DNA from: Oscillospiraceae bacterium
GTDB taxonomy: Bacteria > Bacillota > Clostridia > Oscillospirales > Acutalibacteraceae
Direction: 5' to 3'
NCBI GenBank assembly: GCA_910574935.1
Contig: CAJTCU010000001.1
Coordinates: 186,001-250,000, forward strand
DNA length: 64,000 bases
The position numbers were made by a program, and so were the translations under genes. Shown piece by piece: positions 2,887-64,000 of this stretch; position 1 is the first letter of the stretch, and the number at the start of each line of letters is the position of its first letter. The notes beneath the pieces are model-generated. The model was not told the origin of the DNA and searched no databases. It was given only the letters and a program-made list of their open reading frames with translations.

Positions 2887-4172
2887 CACACCTGATACAC
2901 CTTGCAGCCGTGGGGGGCCACGGTGGCCCGCAGGGTTCCGTTCTCTCCATGGGCCGTCTCGCCGGTCCACAGCTCCACCAGCGCCTGGTCCCCCTCCAGC
3001 CTGGCGGAAAGCTCCCGCTCCTCATCCGCCAGGTTAAACAGCGCCACCCAGCGCTGGCCGGTTTTTTCGTTGGCAGCGGTCCACACCGCGTGGGCGTTGT
3101 CCCGGCACTGCTGCTGGGGCCTGCACGCGGGGGGCAGCATGGCCAGCACCTTTTGGTTTGTCAAAAGGGACAGAGTCCACGCGTCCAGCCGGGTCAGTTC
3201 CGCGCCCAGCATCAACGGAGAGCCGAACAGGCACCACAGGGTCATCATGGTCCGCTGCTCGTCCCGGGTCAGATGGGTGTCCCACTCCCCCCGGCCAAAG
3301 CCGCCGCCAATTTTGCCCAGGGGCAGCATGTCGCAGTCTGGGTAGCAGCCAGGGGCAATGTGGTCCTGCCAGATCTCGCACCGGGGGAACATCTCTTTCA
3401 GGTCCTGCCAGTTGTCCCAAAAGTCGTCGGTGATGCGCCACATGTTGGCATATTTCTTATAATGCCAGCTCTTTTGAATAATGGCCGGCCCTGGGGAAAG
3501 GGACAGCACAATCTCCCGCCCGGACTTGAGAATAGCCCGGTGGAGCATCTCAATTTCATGGCGGCGTTCATAGCCCTTTTCGCTGTGGTTCACCAGGTTG
3601 TCTGTGTTACAGATGTCATCGCATTTGATAAAGTCCACCCCCCAAGAGGCGTACAGCTCTATGACAGAGTCATAGTAGGCCTGACCTTCCGGGCAGTCGC
3701 GCACACCATACATGTCCGGGTTCCAGCGGCAGACCGAGTTTGGCTCCGCTACCATGTCCGCGGTGGTATCCGTGCCCAGGATCTTGGCGTGCTGGTGGGC
3801 CGCCTGGCGGGGGATTCCACGCATCATATGAATGCCGAACTTCAGCCCCAGGCTGTGGATGTAGTCCGCCAGGGGCTTAAAGCCCTGGCCGCCCGCGGCG
3901 GAGGGGTAGCGCTCGGGGTCTGGCAGCAGCCGGGAATAGGGGTCCATCTCCACTGGGGCAAAGGGAATGTACTGGAACTTGTCCCGCATAGAGCCCGCCC
4001 TGTGGGCGTACCACTGGATGTCAATGACCACGTACTCCCAGCCAAAGGGCTTCAGCTTTTGGGCCAAAACCTCCGCGTTGGCCCGCACCTGGGCCTCGTT
4101 CACGGTGGTGTCGTAATAATCGTAGCTGTTCCACCCCATGGGCGGGGTGGGGGCAAAGGCGTTTTTGTCCAT
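2883..4172 (-). CDS. GH27 alpha-galactosidase
   Basis: Predicted retaining alpha-galactosidase of 429 aa, hydrolysing alpha-1,6-galactosyl ends of melibiose, raffinose or galactomannan. The N-terminal TPPMGWNSYDYYD motif, the nucleophile Asp in FIKCDD (about D185) and the acid/base Asp in WRITDDFWD (about D249/D250) are all present. A short C-terminal beta domain follows. The start at 4172 is chosen because AGGAGA sits just upstream on the minus strand; the longer frame to 4271 runs through the promoter. There is no signal peptide, so it is intracellular. A GH36 enzyme at 29.2 kb gives a second alpha-galactosidase. Its stop codon lies in a family A repeat end. Confidence 0.95.
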   Translation of the reverse strand: MDKNAFAPTPPMGWNSYDYYDTTVNEAQVRANAEVLAQKLKPFGWEYVVIDIQWYAHRAGSMRDKFQYIPFAPVEMDPYSRLLPDPERYPSAAGGQGFKPLADYIHSLGLKFGIHMMRGIPRQAAHQHAKILGTDTTADMVAEPNSVCRWNPDMYGVRDCPEGQAYYDSVIELYASWGVDFIKCDDICNTDNLVNHSEKGYERRHEIEMLHRAILKSGREIVLSLSPGPAIIQKSWHYKKYANMWRITDDFWDNWQDLKEMFPRCEIWQDHIAPGCYPDCDMLPLGKIGGGFGRGEWDTHLTRDEQRTMMTLWCLFGSPLMLGAELTRLDAWTLSLLTNQKVLAMLPPACRPQQQCRDNAHAVWTAANEKTGQRWVALFNLADEERELSARLEGDQALVELWTGETAHGENGTLRATVAPHGCKVYQVC

Positions 4173-4235
4173 AAGGATTCTCCTATCAGGATAATTTGCA
4201 GCCATGGGCCAAAGGCCGCAGGGGCTGGTAAGCTT

Positions 4236-4264
4236 ATTGTAGCACCTTCGAGACCTGGGGACAA
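4236..4264 (-). promoter_or_regulatory. Promoter for the GH27 gene
   Basis: On the minus strand, -35 TTGTCC (4264-4259), a 17-base spacer and an extended -10 TGCTACAAT (-10 at 4241-4236) lie about 65 bases upstream of the start. Confidence 0.6.
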
Positions 4265-4465
4265 GCCGCAAAGCGGAAATTTTTTTGGGGCGCCGCCCCC
4301 TTCATCACGGAGGCGGCTGGAATTTATTGGCTTTTAGCCAGTATCTTCTCCGGCGGCTTCACCGGGCAAAACAAAGCCGCCCAAGCCGCTCCTTGTACAA
4401 GACCTACGGAATACGCGGCAAAACTTTGGTAATTTCCCCATGAAGCATTTCCCTGGAAACTATGC

Positions 4466-4471
4466 TATAAT
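4466..4471 (+). promoter_or_regulatory. Extended -10 element upstream of the MATE gene
   Basis: TGCTATAAT is a consensus extended -10, with the TATAAT at 4466-4471. No good -35 is seen. It leaves a leader of about 90 bases before the MATE start. The 388-base divergent gap between GH27 and MATE holds this, the GH27 promoter and no further gene. Confidence 0.5.
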
Positions 4472-4560
4472 AGTAAAGAATGTGTATTATGTGAAAGTAT
4501 GCGGTTTACCGCCGCGCCATCAAGGCGCAATTTATCTATGGGAAGGATGGGATCGTATTT

Positions 4561-5988
4561 ATGGCGGGAAAACTCTCCGCGCTGTTTGAAGCACAAGATA
4601 TGACCATAGGCAGCCCTACCCGAAACCTTATTCGGTTCTCGGCGCCGCTGCTCATTGGCAACATGGCCCAGCAGCTGTACAGCACGGTAGACTCGATTGT
4701 GGTGGGCCACTATGTGGGGGACGGGGCCCTGGCGGCCATTGGGGCCAGCAATCCTGTGCTCAACCTTTTGCTGGTGCTGTTTATGGGCGTTTCGGTGGGG
4801 GCCAGCGTTATGGCCTCGCAGTATTTTGGCGCCAAAGAAAGGGACAACCTCTCCCACACCATTGGCGCCACCATTACGGCCACCTTTGTCACCTCAGTCA
4901 TTATCATGATCGTAGGGCCGCTGATCACCTCGCCCATCATGGGCCTGCTGCAAACCCCGGAGGACATCTACCAAATGGCCTGCGAGTACCTGGTCATCCT
5001 CTTTGCGGGCATCATTGGCTCCGCCTACTACAATATCATCTCCGGCGTGCTCCGGGGCCTGGGAGATTCCATCATGCCCCTGGTGTTCCTTCTGGTGGCC
5101 TGCGGGCTAAACATCGGCCTGGACGTGTGGTTTGTGGCCGGGTTTCAGTGGGGGGTGGCCGGCGTGGCCTGGGCCACCATTATTGCCCAGCTTATCTCCG
5201 GGCTCCTATGCCTTTGGCGGCTTTTAAAGATGAAAGACCTGTTCACCCTTACCTGGCGGGGGCTGTGGCCCAGAGCCTACTTTGTGAAGAAGCTGGCCAC
5301 GCTGGGCCTGCCCAGCGGCCTGACCCAGGCCATCTTCTCTCTGGCCATGATCATCGTCCAGTCCCTGACCAACTCCTTTGGCACCTACGTGCTGGCGGCC
5401 AACACCGCCGTGATGCGGGTGGACGGCTTTGCCATGATGCCGAACTTCACCTTTGGCACCGCTATGACTACATACACGGGCCAGAACATGGGCGCCGGCC
5501 GGCTGGACCGCACGGAAAAGGGCGCGAAATCCGGTATGATTATGGGCCTGGGGGTCTCGGTGGTGCTGGTGGGGCTCATCCTGTTGTTTGGCCGCTACCT
5601 GCTGATCCTCTTTACCGACACCCCAGAGGTCATTGACCTGGGGGTACGAATGCTGCGCACCCTGGCCCTGGGCTACATTGCCATGGCCGTTACCCAAATC
5701 CTCTCCGGCGTGATGCGGGGCGCGGGCGACACCATGACCCCCATGTGGATCTCCCTTATCACCACTGTGGCGGTGCGGGTGCCCGTGGCCTACGGCCTGG
5801 AGTTCCTCACCCGGCCCGCGGGCGGGGCCATGGGCTCTGGCACCCCGGACCCGCTGTTCCTCTCCCTGCTGATCTCCTGGGTGGTGGGCGCGCTGCTGAC
5901 CACCATTGCCTACCTGCGGGGCGGCTGGAAAAAGAAAGCCATCACCAGCGCGGGCAAAAGCAAGGACCAGGACCCTTCTTTGGGGTGA
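4561..5988 (+). CDS. MATE family multidrug/cation exporter
   Basis: Inner membrane antiporter of 475 aa with about 12 hydrophobic segments in two similar halves, as in NorM/DinF-type MATE proteins. The first half has PLLIGNMAQQLYSTVDSIVVG and the second half repeats a similar pattern (about residue 250 on). Family members export drugs or metabolites using sodium or protons; the substrate is not predictable. The start follows GGAAGGA. The C-terminus is charged (WKKKAITSAGKSKDQD). It stands alone after a TGCTATAAT promoter; the next gene begins 140 bases on with its own strong ribosome site. Confidence 0.93.
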   Translation: MAGKLSALFEAQDMTIGSPTRNLIRFSAPLLIGNMAQQLYSTVDSIVVGHYVGDGALAAIGASNPVLNLLLVLFMGVSVGASVMASQYFGAKERDNLSHTIGATITATFVTSVIIMIVGPLITSPIMGLLQTPEDIYQMACEYLVILFAGIIGSAYYNIISGVLRGLGDSIMPLVFLLVACGLNIGLDVWFVAGFQWGVAGVAWATIIAQLISGLLCLWRLLKMKDLFTLTWRGLWPRAYFVKKLATLGLPSGLTQAIFSLAMIIVQSLTNSFGTYVLAANTAVMRVDGFAMMPNFTFGTAMTTYTGQNMGAGRLDRTEKGAKSGMIMGLGVSVVLVGLILLFGRYLLILFTDTPEVIDLGVRMLRTLALGYIAMAVTQILSGVMRGAGDTMTPMWISLITTVAVRVPVAYGLEFLTRPAGGAMGSGTPDPLFLSLLISWVVGALLTTIAYLRGGWKKKAITSAGKSKDQDPSLG

Positions 5989-12526: not shown

Positions 12527-12563
12527 AGCGCCAGCGGCCCCAGGCTGCCGGCGCTGTTTTTTT
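12527..12563 (+). terminator. Intrinsic terminator
   Basis: AGCGCC and GGCGCT arms with a GC-rich interior are followed by seven T residues. The family A element begins in the T run. Confidence 0.8.
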
Positions 12564-12738
12564 AGAGCCTGTTTCGGGCGTACATCGTCTGCCACGTCAG
12601 ATTTTTCACCAGAGCGCCCAAATGGAGCGCCGCCAATCAGACCATAAATGGTCTTGGGATTCGGCAGGGGAAAGCTGGGCGCTATGGCGGAAAACACGCT
12701 GGCTGGCCATGCGCGGACAGATGCAAAACAGGCTCTTA
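12563..12738. mobile_element. Family A MITE-like element (176 bp, TA-flanked)
   Basis: Terminal inverted repeats TAGAGCCTGTTT and AAACAGGCTCTTA. The interior is clearly homologous to the copy at 25296-25473 (shared CCAAATGGAGCGCCGCC, CATAAATG, TTCGGC and GGGCGCTATGGCG strings). No transposase is encoded; the size and TA borders fit a non-autonomous mariner/IS630-type element. Confidence 0.8.
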
Positions 12739-25265: not shown

Positions 25266-25295
25266 CACAAACACGACCTTTCTATGTAAATTCCT

Positions 25296-25473
25296 TAGAG
25301 GCTGTTTCGTATCTGGCTGTGCATTGATTGCAGCGTGAAATTTTTCGCCAGAGTGTCCAAATGGAGCGCCGCCCATCAGGCCATAAATGCTCTTGAGATT
25401 CGGCCAGGGAAAGTTGGGCGCTATGGCGAAAATACGCTAGCTATGTGCGGGCAAACACTAAACAGGCTCTTTA
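25296..25473. mobile_element. Family A MITE-like element (178 bp, TA-flanked)
   Basis: Ends TAGAGGCTGTTTCG and AAACAGGCTCTTTA. The interior aligns along its length with the 12563-12738 copy. It lies between the divergent C39 peptidase and pyruvate kinase genes, 30 bases upstream of the peptidase start, so it may carry or displace that gene's promoter. Confidence 0.8.
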
Positions 25474-31357: not shown

Positions 31358-31737
31358 CCAGCGCCCGCAACGTGACGTTGCATCCAATGTCGCGGGGGCG
31401 TTCGCTTGGGCTCACTCGTCGGTGGTAGCGTTTCGCTAAGCTAGCGCGGTTTTCTGGGCGCTTCCGATCCTGTCCACGTTGGCTCGGCTAATGGTTACCA
31501 CCCAGGAAGGGCGGGGCTGTGCCCGAGGAAGGTCCCCAGTGGCAACCGTTCTGACCCGACCGGCTCCAGCCGATTTCATGGGACACACCCACGGTGGGGC
31601 CGTGTTGGTTAAAGCAAATAAAGAGAGAGCCTTGCCGGAAGCGCCCGGAGGAACGCGCTGGCTAAGCGAACGGTTACTGGCGAGTGAGCCAGGGCGAACG
31701 CCCCACGACATTGGTGCAGCGCTTGCGCTGCCCGTGA
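31358..31737. repeat. Family C foldback element
   Basis: Left arm about 31390-31466 (starts GCGGGGGCGTTCGCTT) is inverted and imperfectly repeated at about 31635-31712 (ends GCGAACGCCCC), around a core of about 170 bases. The outer edge has a GCAGCGCTTGCGCTGC palindrome near 31717. The interior holds no gene that I would defend. It separates GH36 from tRNA-Lys. Confidence 0.75.
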
Positions 31738-31821: not shown

Positions 31822-31897
31822 GACTCATTAGCTCAGTTGGCAGAGCACCTGACTTTTAATCAGGGTGTCCGGGGTTCAAATCCCCGATGGGTCACCA
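31822..31897 (+). tRNA. tRNA-Lys (anticodon TTT)
   Basis: 76 bases including an encoded CCA. Acceptor GACTCAT pairs with ATGGGTC (one G-T pair), D-arm GCTCAGTTGGCAGAGC, anticodon stem CTGA/TCAG around a CTTTTAA loop with TTT, and T-arm CGGGG/CCCCG around TTCAAAT. Single tRNA gene, not part of a cluster. Confidence 0.97.
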
Positions 31898-61960: not shown

Positions 61961-62030
61961 AGCATCATCCCTCTTGTAGCTATTGTACCGGATTTCCCGC
62001 AAAAGATGTTGAACACAATGTAAACTTTGC

Positions 62031-62297
62031 AGCGCCCAGCGCAAGCGCTGGACCATTAGTCGCGGGGGCGTTCGCTTCGGCTCACTCGCCAGTGGTAACT
62101 TTTAGCCGAGCCAGCGCGTTCTTCTGGACGCTTCCGGCGTGACCCTTCTTTATGTCTTTCTTTAGCCAATACGGGCCCCCACCCCTCGGCCCCTGTCCGC
62201 GCTGGCTCGGCTAAAAAAATATACACCGGCAAGTGAGCCGGAGCGAACGCCCCCGCAACATTTGGCGCGGCGTCACGTTGCGGACGCTGGGCTGCTG
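62031..62297. repeat. Family C foldback element
   Basis: Left arm (AGCGCAAGCGCTGG, then GGGGGCGTTCGCTTCGG) and right arm (CCGGAGCGAACGCCCC) are inverted over about 80 bases with few mismatches, around a core of about 90 bases holding a TTTAGCCAATACGGGCCCC string. Lies between DUF5685 and the lipid kinase gene. Confidence 0.8.
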
Positions 62298-62299
62298 TG

Positions 62300-63184
62300 T
62301 CAGCGGTAAAGATTCAGCCCCCCCTGCAAAACCTCTACCCTCACATCCTGCCCGCCAGAGGCATACTCTCCGTCCAGGGACCAGGGCATGGGCTCTGCGC
62401 AGGTAAACGCGGCCCCCTGGGTATGCACAAAGGTAATCAGTTCCTCATCCACCTTGCCGCCCATAAGGGCCAGCAGAATGCGGTTCAGCTCATGAATATT
62501 CTTGGGGGTCTTGACCAGGCTTAGTTCAAACATCCCGTCCGTGGGGTTCACCTGGGCTGGGTCCAGCTTAATCACGCCCCCTAAAGAGGTGGAGTTGCTG
62601 ACCGAGCCAAACAGGTAGTTCCCCTGGTACACGCCCCCCTCGGCGGTCTCCACCCGCACCGGGTAAGACTGTAAGGCGGGCAGCTCCTTAATGCCCTCAA
62701 TCACATAGGCCAAGTGCCCAAGGGAGTTCTTCAGGCTTTGGGTAGTGGTGTAAGAGGTCTGGGTAAAGGCCCCAAAGGAGGCCACATAGATAAAGTGGCG
62801 GCCGCAAAACCGGCCCACGTCAATGGGGGCGGGCTCCCCCCGGGCAATAAGCTCCGCGGCCATAGGGGGCTCTTTGGGCAGGCCCAAAAAGTTGGCGAAG
62901 TCGTTCGTGGTTCCAGCGGGGATATAGCCCAGGGGAATGGGGCACTGCCGGCTAAGCAGCTGGTCCGCAGCGGCGCTAAGGGTGCCGTCGCCCCCGCAGC
63001 AGACAATAGCCCCCGGGCCCTGGGCCACAGCCCGCTCCAGGGCCCGGGCGGCGTGTCCGGCGGTAAAGGTGAGTTCCACCACAGGCTGGTGGCCCGCCTG
63101 CTGAAAGGCCTGGAAGATACCCTCGGCCTCCCGCAAAACCGTCTGTTTTCCAGCGCTGGCGTTAATGAGAATGCTTACGTTCAT
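62300..63184 (-). CDS. Diacylglycerol/lipid kinase (DagK-like)
   Basis: 294 aa. DAGK catalytic domain with CCGGDGTLS (GGDGT at 64-68) and ATP-binding NASAGK; GYIPAGTTNDFA and the C-terminal ECRK-like region SLDGEYASGG. Phosphorylates diacylglycerol or a similar lipid to recycle it into phospholipids. AAAGGAG before the ATG. Flanked by family C elements on both sides. Confidence 0.93.
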   Translation of the reverse strand: MNVSILINASAGKQTVLREAEGIFQAFQQAGHQPVVELTFTAGHAARALERAVAQGPGAIVCCGGDGTLSAAADQLLSRQCPIPLGYIPAGTTNDFANFLGLPKEPPMAAELIARGEPAPIDVGRFCGRHFIYVASFGAFTQTSYTTTQSLKNSLGHLAYVIEGIKELPALQSYPVRVETAEGGVYQGNYLFGSVSNSTSLGGVIKLDPAQVNPTDGMFELSLVKTPKNIHELNRILLALMGGKVDEELITFVHTQGAAFTCAEPMPWSLDGEYASGGQDVRVEVLQGGLNLYR

Positions 63185-63248
63185 GGGGTTCTCCTTTTTG
63201 GCAAGTTGACAATATCTTTATTATAAACCATTTCTTTCCCCTTATCAT

Positions 63249-63716
63249 GCAGCGCCCAGCGCAAGCGCTGGACCATTAGTCGCGGGGGCGTTCGCTTCGG
63301 CTCACTCGCCAGTGGTAACTTTTAGCCGAGCCAGCGCGTTCCTCTGGATGCTTCCGGGCAGCGCAAGCGCTGCATCCACTTCGCGGAATCGGGCAAAGCT
63401 GCGCCCTCGCCAGTGCGAACCATCAGCATAGCCAGCGCGTTCCTCTGGGCGCTTCCGGGCAGCGCAAGCGCTGCATCCACTTCGCGGAATCGGGCAAAGC
63501 TGCGCCCTCGCCAGTGCGAACCATCAGCATAGCCAGCGCGTTCCTCTGGGCGCTTCCGGCACGGCACCGTCTCTGTGTTTTTCTTTTAGCTAATACGGGC
63601 CCCACCCCTTCGGCCCCAGCCAACCCTGTCCGCGCTGGCTTAGCCAAAAGTTATCAGCGGCAAGTGAGCCCAAGCGAACGCCCCCGCGACTAACGGTCCA
63701 GCGCTTGCGCTGGTGT
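63249..63716. repeat. Family C foldback element with internal tandem duplication
   Basis: The left arm starting CCAGCGCAAGCGCTGG near 63254 is inverted at the right end (about 63636-63716) over about 83 bases, almost perfectly. The core contains a 101-bp tandem duplication. No gene is present. Confidence 0.85.
63358..63559. repeat. Two tandem 101-bp units inside the family C element
   Basis: Unit 1 (63358-63458) and unit 2 (63459-63559) are virtually identical, starting GCAGCGCAAGCGCTGCATCC and containing TCGCGGAATCGGGCAAAGCT. Each begins with a CAGCGCAAGCGCTG palindrome. Confidence 0.9.
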
Positions 63717-63822
63717 GTTGCGCGTTGCGGTGTGTTACGGCTTCTACCTATAGTTATAACAATATACACTTTGTACATGACTTTATAAAACACCGTAACA
63801 CAACACAACACATAACACATCA

Positions 63823-64000
63823 GCAGCGTGACGCTGCACCCACTTCGCGGAATCGGGCAAAGCTGCGCCCTCGCCAGTGTAAACCGCCAGCTTAGCCAAC
63901 GCGGACAGAGGCCACACACCGCCGGAAGCCCCCAGAGAAACGCGCTGGCTGGGCCAGAAGATACCACCGGCAAGTGAGCCCAAGCGAACGCCCCCGCGGC
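63823..64000. repeat. Family C foldback element, cut by the window end
   Basis: The same 101-bp-unit sequence (TCGCGGAATCGGGCAAAGCT) and a right arm GCAAGTGAGCCCAAGCGAAC reach the last base, so another copy or its remainder lies beyond. Confidence 0.75.

Follow-up and report, generated by a model that had tools for sequence, protein, structure and literature searches.

How do palindromic repeats that carry no transposase spread, and why do they gather at the ends of genes? A family of long hairpin-forming repeats raises this question in the window, the whole 64,000-nucleotide stretch analysed here (G000:C1:186001-250000, part of the 4.17-Mb draft genome G000 of a gut bacterium, an Acutalibacter). 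The first-pass annotation had placed complete copies at 31358-31737, 62031-62297 and 63249-63716 and a fourth one cut by the window end; all are present and match one another. To describe them we use modules that were defined on 15 regions of G000, then on 16 contigs or stretches of a sister species (G014) and one further G000 locus: P, a 16-bp hairpin; three types of arm (A, B and C); a core that has a direction and measures about 80 bp; and a D module (clusters were broken at the palindrome). The window contains the following features.

Copies in the window and their modules

31368..31730, forward strand: copy 1, with a CAACGTGACGTTG hairpin (31368-31380), an A arm (31389-31448), a C-arm fragment in reverse (31477-31573), a forward core (31593-31656) and a reverse A arm plus P (31654-31730)
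31822..31894, forward strand: tRNA-Lys (anticodon TTT, read by eye), the neighbour used in the empty-site comparison
62037..62292, no strand assigned: copy 2, with P (62037-62050), an A arm up to 62118, a reverse core (62116-62198) and a reverse A arm (62198-62272)
62300..63184, reverse strand: gene for a DAGK_cat/YegS_C protein, the neighbour separating copies 2 and 3
63257..63712, no strand assigned: copy 3, with an A arm (63257-63338), two B arms (63359-63439 and 63460-63540), a reverse core (63538-63617) and a reverse A arm (63631-63712)
63709..63824, no strand assigned: D module of about 110 bp, with inverted ends of its own and including TACCTATAGTTATAACAA
63824..64000, no strand assigned: fourth element, cut by the window end, with P (CAGCGTGACGCTG) and a B arm (63824-63903), then a reverse A arm from 63941

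As read from these sequences, we showed that the basic unit is the 16-bp P hairpin followed by an arm, and that such units usually come in facing pairs with a directional core between them. An element runs in the order P, A arm, directional core, then a second arm of any of the three types, and a closing P; with two arms and one core it measures about 241 bp. The arm pairs in 31 two-arm elements were BA (10), AA (9), CA (5), AB (5) and AC (2), and two non-A arms never occurred together. The arms had been described as conserved; they are not one sequence but of three types, at least one A arm being present in each of the 31 elements. At the core's GGACAGG side, the arm was of type A in all 18 elements with a recognised core. 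The D pattern (up to two mismatches) has six matches in G000, every one of them in or beside a P cluster.

Copy 1 begins 10 bp past the stop codon of a melibiase-family gene, upstream of the tRNA-Lys gene. Copy 2, whose decayed P extends by eye to about 62292, adjoins with its right end the stop codon (62300) of the diacylglycerol-kinase gene. The B arms of copy 3 are tandem units of 102 and 101 bp, each starting at P, and the cluster of the fourth element runs about 61 bp past the window end. An arm length of about 80 bp fits one copy, in which 83 nt are 89% complementary (63256/63631); the others give 58 nt at 76% and 91 columns at 78%, the latter being the value found in the alignment of the copy at 31376. 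Bordering palindromes had been proposed for all copies: CAGCGCAAGCGCTG stands at both ends of 63257-63712 and no other copy has both, the right border of the copy at 62037 being decayed and the left border of that at 31368 being CAACGTGACGTTG. Two further repeats were observed besides this family. One, of about 166 bp (query 3652-3817), has about 30 or more copies in G000, several of them 99-100% identical, and a stretch resembling it by eye splits an element at locus L038. The other is a pair in the window (12562-12737 and 25295-25471) that is 79% alike over 182 aligned columns.

The three window copies fold, as single strands, with z-scores of -11.2, -11.0 and -9.8, and none of the shuffles folded as well. 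We assessed the implication of the arms in this fold by permutation. Arm-arm identity within the 31 elements was 0.606, against 0.644 between elements, and 0.9999 of the permutations equalled or exceeded the observed value; for the nine A+A elements alone, the paired fraction was 0.829 within and 0.847 between elements. Selection on arm-arm pairing is therefore not supported, since the two arms of an element neither resemble each other more nor pair better than arms taken from different elements. By this comparison, the large foldback is a consequence of related arms facing each other.

The P hairpin behaves differently from the arms in such tests. Among 120 copies, whose remaining stem letters were set by the search pattern, Watson-Crick pairing holds for the inner variable pair in 70 of 74 and in 46 of 46 copies, and for the outer variable pair in 72 of 74 and in 46 of 46; each pair alternates between two main pair types. 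In an alignment of 24 arms every P cell is paired, with a covariation score reached by none of 500 shuffles; further pair types, scored by one of five covariation measures on the same 24 arms, did not rise above shuffles. This covariation supports P as a structured unit. Since the base preceding P covaries with the base after it, the moving boundary is the 16-bp palindrome itself.

Placement at gene ends and distribution among relatives

We analysed the position of the elements relative to genes in 19 clusters, a count that leaves out three chance 12-15-bp palindrome matches. In 16 of the 19, an end overlaps or lies within 26 bp of a gene's stop codon, and 15 of these 16 adjoin Pfam-supported genes; the exceptions are L038, the second cluster of L041, and L043. 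Between tandem genes, 10 of 12 cases are closer to the stop than to the next start (p=0.019), with a mean position fraction of 0.18 (p=0.00006 against uniform placement), some of the start positions in this test having been chosen by hand among alternatives. The coding ends of several genes are element sequence, as in ...ATQALHH-stop. The copies had been called intergenic and free of genes; they do carry no gene, but at several places in the genome their ends overlap or supply the stop codons of their neighbours. The stop is TAG in 12 of 18 abutting genes and in 15 of 36 long open reading frames of the window; a TAG stop as the target was considered and found not decisive, part of these TAGs being element sequence.

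The same placement recurs in diverged copies. At 14 distinct diverged places, which include four G000 or G014 members (one an orthologue pair), P starts in 10 cases from -16 to +12 bp of the end of a stop codon closing at least 90 open codons. Nine of these ten scripted placements were accepted as genes; the tenth, L180, was doubted, its frame crossing a spacer. Four loci (L176, L181, L186 and L188) do not fit a placement at a stop codon. The gene before L040 and its relative in the congener G040 (86% identical over 132 residues) both have a unit after the stop.

Searching the whole genome with the 83-nt arm, a check proposed in the first-pass annotation, gave 62 matches in G000. Over 40 relatives including G000, the same arm has at least 35 matches in G014, a lower bound because only part of the candidates was scored, and a single weak match (in G012) in the 38 others. 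The exact CAGCGCAAGCGCTG occurs 34 times in G000 and 31 times in G014. Beyond these two genomes it has a single occurrence among 23 other congeners and a single one in a genome from a different family of the same order; the reversed-pattern control gave 0. Among the named records of a genome collection, a search that may leave out the window's own genome, the exact arm pattern was found only in three contigs, those of the Acutalibacter sp. metagenome assembly JAAWSH01. The plasmid and phage collections searched with copy 2 gave no match, and pattern scans of viral contigs gave none.

A profile built from 24 arms extended this picture. It has 78 matches in G000, 55 in G014 and one to three in each of G001, G010, G012, G020, G040 and G042; the remaining 21 genomes of the genus gave no match, nor did 31 genomes from other genera, under stricter filters through which weak matches may escape. 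The confinement to two species suggested by the arm and exact-P searches is thus corrected by matches in six more congeners. As far as these searches reach, the family in its full form was found in G000 (19 clusters studied) and in one sister species, G014 (16 contigs studied). Reciprocally, a model made from the G001, G010, G040 and G012 units recovers the G000 and G014 arms. P and a CGCGG block are common to the congener units, which in part also share GCCAGCGCG. The units of G020 and G042 (L178 and L184) have a terminal hairpin that differs in sequence (such as GCGGGGTGCCCCCGC), still placed after stop codons; L184 also shows a duplication of about 30 bp. At L176 and L177 (G040 and G010), a P-plus-arm unit occupies the same position in similar DNA, and in L176 it lies within an open frame.

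Occupied sites, empty sites and array growth

We compared the sites of the elements between the two species and with their congeners. Flanks of G000 clusters, representing 12 loci, are matched by 13 of the 16 element-bearing G014 contigs; this leaves L099, L101 and L104. The right flank of L101 is located in G000 C1, its left flank being absent from the matches. At L104, the left 3.6 kb match G000 C11 until 18 bp short of the element, which G000 lacks at this place; for the right flank, no BLAST alignment was obtained within 1.5 kb and only a short common stretch is seen by eye. The G014 assembly reaches 63% completeness, with several contigs breaking off inside arrays. In the congeners, the empty sites expected of a mobile element were found at copies 1 and 2. 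Copy 2 is missing in all six congeners whose two flanks lie side by side. Around copy 1, 13 congeners keep the gene end and the tRNA in order within 2 kb, and the copy, judged by spacer length, is missing in 12 of them (60-193 bp, against 430-520 bp in G000), the spacer of G007 measuring 1.5 kb; ten of the 12 short spacers were read and contain neither arm nor P. The simplest reading of these sequences is insertion before the two species split, with loss elsewhere as the alternative. They support elements that are non-autonomous and were once mobile; since most sites are common to both species, present-day transposition is not shown.

What might have moved them was sought among known enzymes. 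The Y1 transposase (PF01797) has no match in G000 or in the 63% complete G014 and is present in 11 of 30 genomes; of 29 genomes in the genus, 19 have IS110 matches. Units flank none of the 10 Y1 loci compared (five from congeners) and neither of two congener IS110 loci, and no exact P lies near the six G000 IS110 coordinates. Both candidates were therefore set aside, neither having a link to the elements. At L041, a D5-type primase gene (3531-4976) sits between two element clusters and a D module, and similarity in the congener matches listed for this region ends at the end of the preceding gene. This primase was rejected as a diagnostic partner, as it also occurs elsewhere in the genus.

The first-pass annotation had raised the possibility of non-autonomous foldback transposons, and a classical element of this kind, or a MITE, would have the arms as terminal inverted repeats recognised by a DDE-type transposase. 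Inverted arms, intergenic insertion and empty sites agree with it, and the non-autonomous and formerly mobile character stands; the foldback part is weakened, because the two arms of an element can be of different types and match no better than after shuffling. Arrays that grow on one side also speak against such a transposon, and in the genes scanned beside and between clusters there is no transposase gene bounded by arms. No target duplication was seen, and none is definable at the empty sites, where the relatives are only about 70-80% identical. We regard this explanation as very improbable.

The arrays themselves reveal how the elements change. Neighbouring P in the same orientation are spaced by 30-32 bp (7 cases), 39 bp (6), 82-85 bp (17) or 101-102 bp (11) in 41 of 57 cases, the remaining 16 spacings ranging from 59 to 166 bp. 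At every array joint, a point in an arm is followed directly by P: units start with P and break off at one of a few points that recur, in counts that include tandem copies and orthologues, so that the joints are not all independent. Between G000 and G014, L040/L112 differ by one 32-bp unit and L035/L109 by one 102-bp unit, while further shared sites have been rebuilt more thoroughly; at the site of copy 3, G014 has only a lone palindrome, CCAGCGCAAGCGCTGG. Some arrays coincide with contig ends in the draft of the sister species. At L035/L109, the left match is 93% identical to the sister and the right one 99.6%, with the switch inside the element array; from the alignment, this resembles a recombination tract whose end lies in the repeat. 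A 1.9-kb segment with regulator and methyltransferase genes is inverted between the species (L045 1653-3569 against G014 C261, L106 3939-5932) and bears element clusters at both ends. This inversion may reflect recombination between inverted copies or a draft misassembly.

Joints that begin exactly at P and have few partner points would also be expected if P were an attC- or dRS3-like site of some integrase and the fixed joints its crossover products, and the reduction of copy 3 to one P in G014 and the inverted inter-cluster segment agree with this. However, no integrase is linked to the elements (IS110 being the integrase family searched), the inversion and the loss of units are accounted for equally well by homologous recombination or by slippage of replication at hairpins, and the G014 assembly is fragmented as well as incomplete. 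Site-specific recombination is accordingly a doubtful explanation, with little probability in our estimate.

The reading that we favour, and hold to be probable, is that the family is of the REP/BIME, BOX or NIME kind: mosaic repeats with hairpin caps, non-autonomous, once mobile and now changing mainly in place. The elements would have spread in the ancestor of both species through an enzyme recognising the P hairpin, which would since have been lost or is yet to be found; present change would occur mostly in place, by duplication, deletion and recombination at P.

RNA features and known repeat families

Placement after stop codons raises the possibility that the family is instead a structured 3'-UTR RNA under selection, in which post-stop hairpins stabilise or terminate the upstream mRNA and spread is a by-product of duplication. 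The diverged places at gene ends (10 of 14, nine accepted), the covariation in P and the post-stop units of the L040 gene and its 86%-identical G040 counterpart are in its favour. So is a strand bias: mismatches between arms lean towards G.U on the core-forward strand (94 to 41), and in 16 of 18 elements this is also the strand on which the arms by themselves pair better (p=0.0003). A second alignment gave a G.U bias of 129 to 63. Counted as distinct column changes, the bias is 20 to 10 in the A+A elements and 37 to 24 in all elements with a core, and whole elements compared with shuffles fold better core-forward in 13 of 18 (p=0.024), which is weak. A strong asymmetry, with 17 of 18 elements folding better core-forward, was rejected as largely base composition. 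The core is co-directional with the neighbouring gene in six of nine usable cases, judged by eye.

A second hairpin was noted in congener units: of six sequences chosen by eye four were counted, three being fully paired with paired differences and one having one mismatch. It is absent from the RNAalifold prediction on 10 cross-species units, which contains little beyond P. Rfam, searched on the window, returned tRNA only; from 62000 to 64000 at E up to 0.1 it returned microRNA models far under their gathering thresholds, and on five congener loci none, so that there is no match above chance. The same gene ends also occur in many congeners without an element. We therefore consider selection for a 3'-UTR RNA unlikely as the primary explanation. 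The suggestion that the repeats are structured units is supported for the P hairpin, which covaries; they may also function as RNA, the G.U-type strand bias being weak after control for composition. Tentatively, and with a probability that we would also put low, a hairpin-recognising system other than RAYT/Y1 may have placed P-capped units at stops and re-joined P to a few fixed points, producing one-sided arrays; the units would then be genus-wide and form RNA structures at 3' ends.

The favoured reading of mosaic repeats invites comparison with known systems. REPs are short palindromes that occur singly, in facing pairs or in clusters, less than 20 bp from the 3' end of the upstream gene in the genomes described, and the termini of GTAG repeats often supply a TAG stop codon (PMC3733652). 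The window family is likewise palindromic, clustered and close to the 3' ends of upstream genes, a location found in the 16 stop-codon clusters and the 10 tandem cases nearer the stop. It differs in that P carries a long conserved arm and a core and that array units end at recurrent arm points. In the copies read there is no GTAG or CGTC tag at the foot of P: the sequence before P at array junctions is mostly TCGCGG, GTTCG, GCGCG or TTCCG, and the TAG preceding P in 18 gene ends is the gene's own stop codon. Unlike GTAG-REPs, the family is not accompanied by a RAYT (Y1) gene found in G000 or in the 63% complete G014.

Pneumococcal BOX elements are composites of boxA-boxB(n)-boxC with a variable number of modules, predicted stem-loops and length variation between strains, and a link of their ends to ISSpn2 has been proposed (PMC3049150). 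The likeness is one of architecture: terminal modules enclose variable internal ones that differ between relatives. Here, in contrast, the terminal units themselves duplicate from P, the ends abut stop codons and no such link was found. Neisserial intergenic mosaic elements (NIMEs) combine the short inverted repeat dRS3 with RS units of 30-160 bp in intergenic arrays that differ between strains, and one dRS3 type is a known target of phage integration (PMC3898611). Our family shares a short inverted repeat with units in intergenic arrays that vary between relatives; P, however, is a longer hairpin with a fixed following arm, no phage or integrase is linked to it, and its letters in the 120 copies do not fit the dRS3 pattern ATTCCC(N8)GGGAAT given there. 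By these comparisons, the family behaves like REP/BIME, BOX or NIME, yet carries none of the tags, transposases or sequences that were looked for from REP and NIME. In the literature searched, mostly open-access titles and the openings of abstracts, nothing was found that names such a repeat family in Acutalibacter.

How CGTC-REPs lacking a transposase of their own spread, and why they gather at gene ends, is described as unsettled (PMC3733652). The present family bears on this question of spread and of gathering at gene ends: shared sites with different modules, empty sites in congeners and exact joints make stepwise growth directly readable. For the genes concerned, an element can lengthen the neighbouring protein by a few residues and provide its stop codon; as a hairpin at the 3' end, it may also act on the mRNA upstream.
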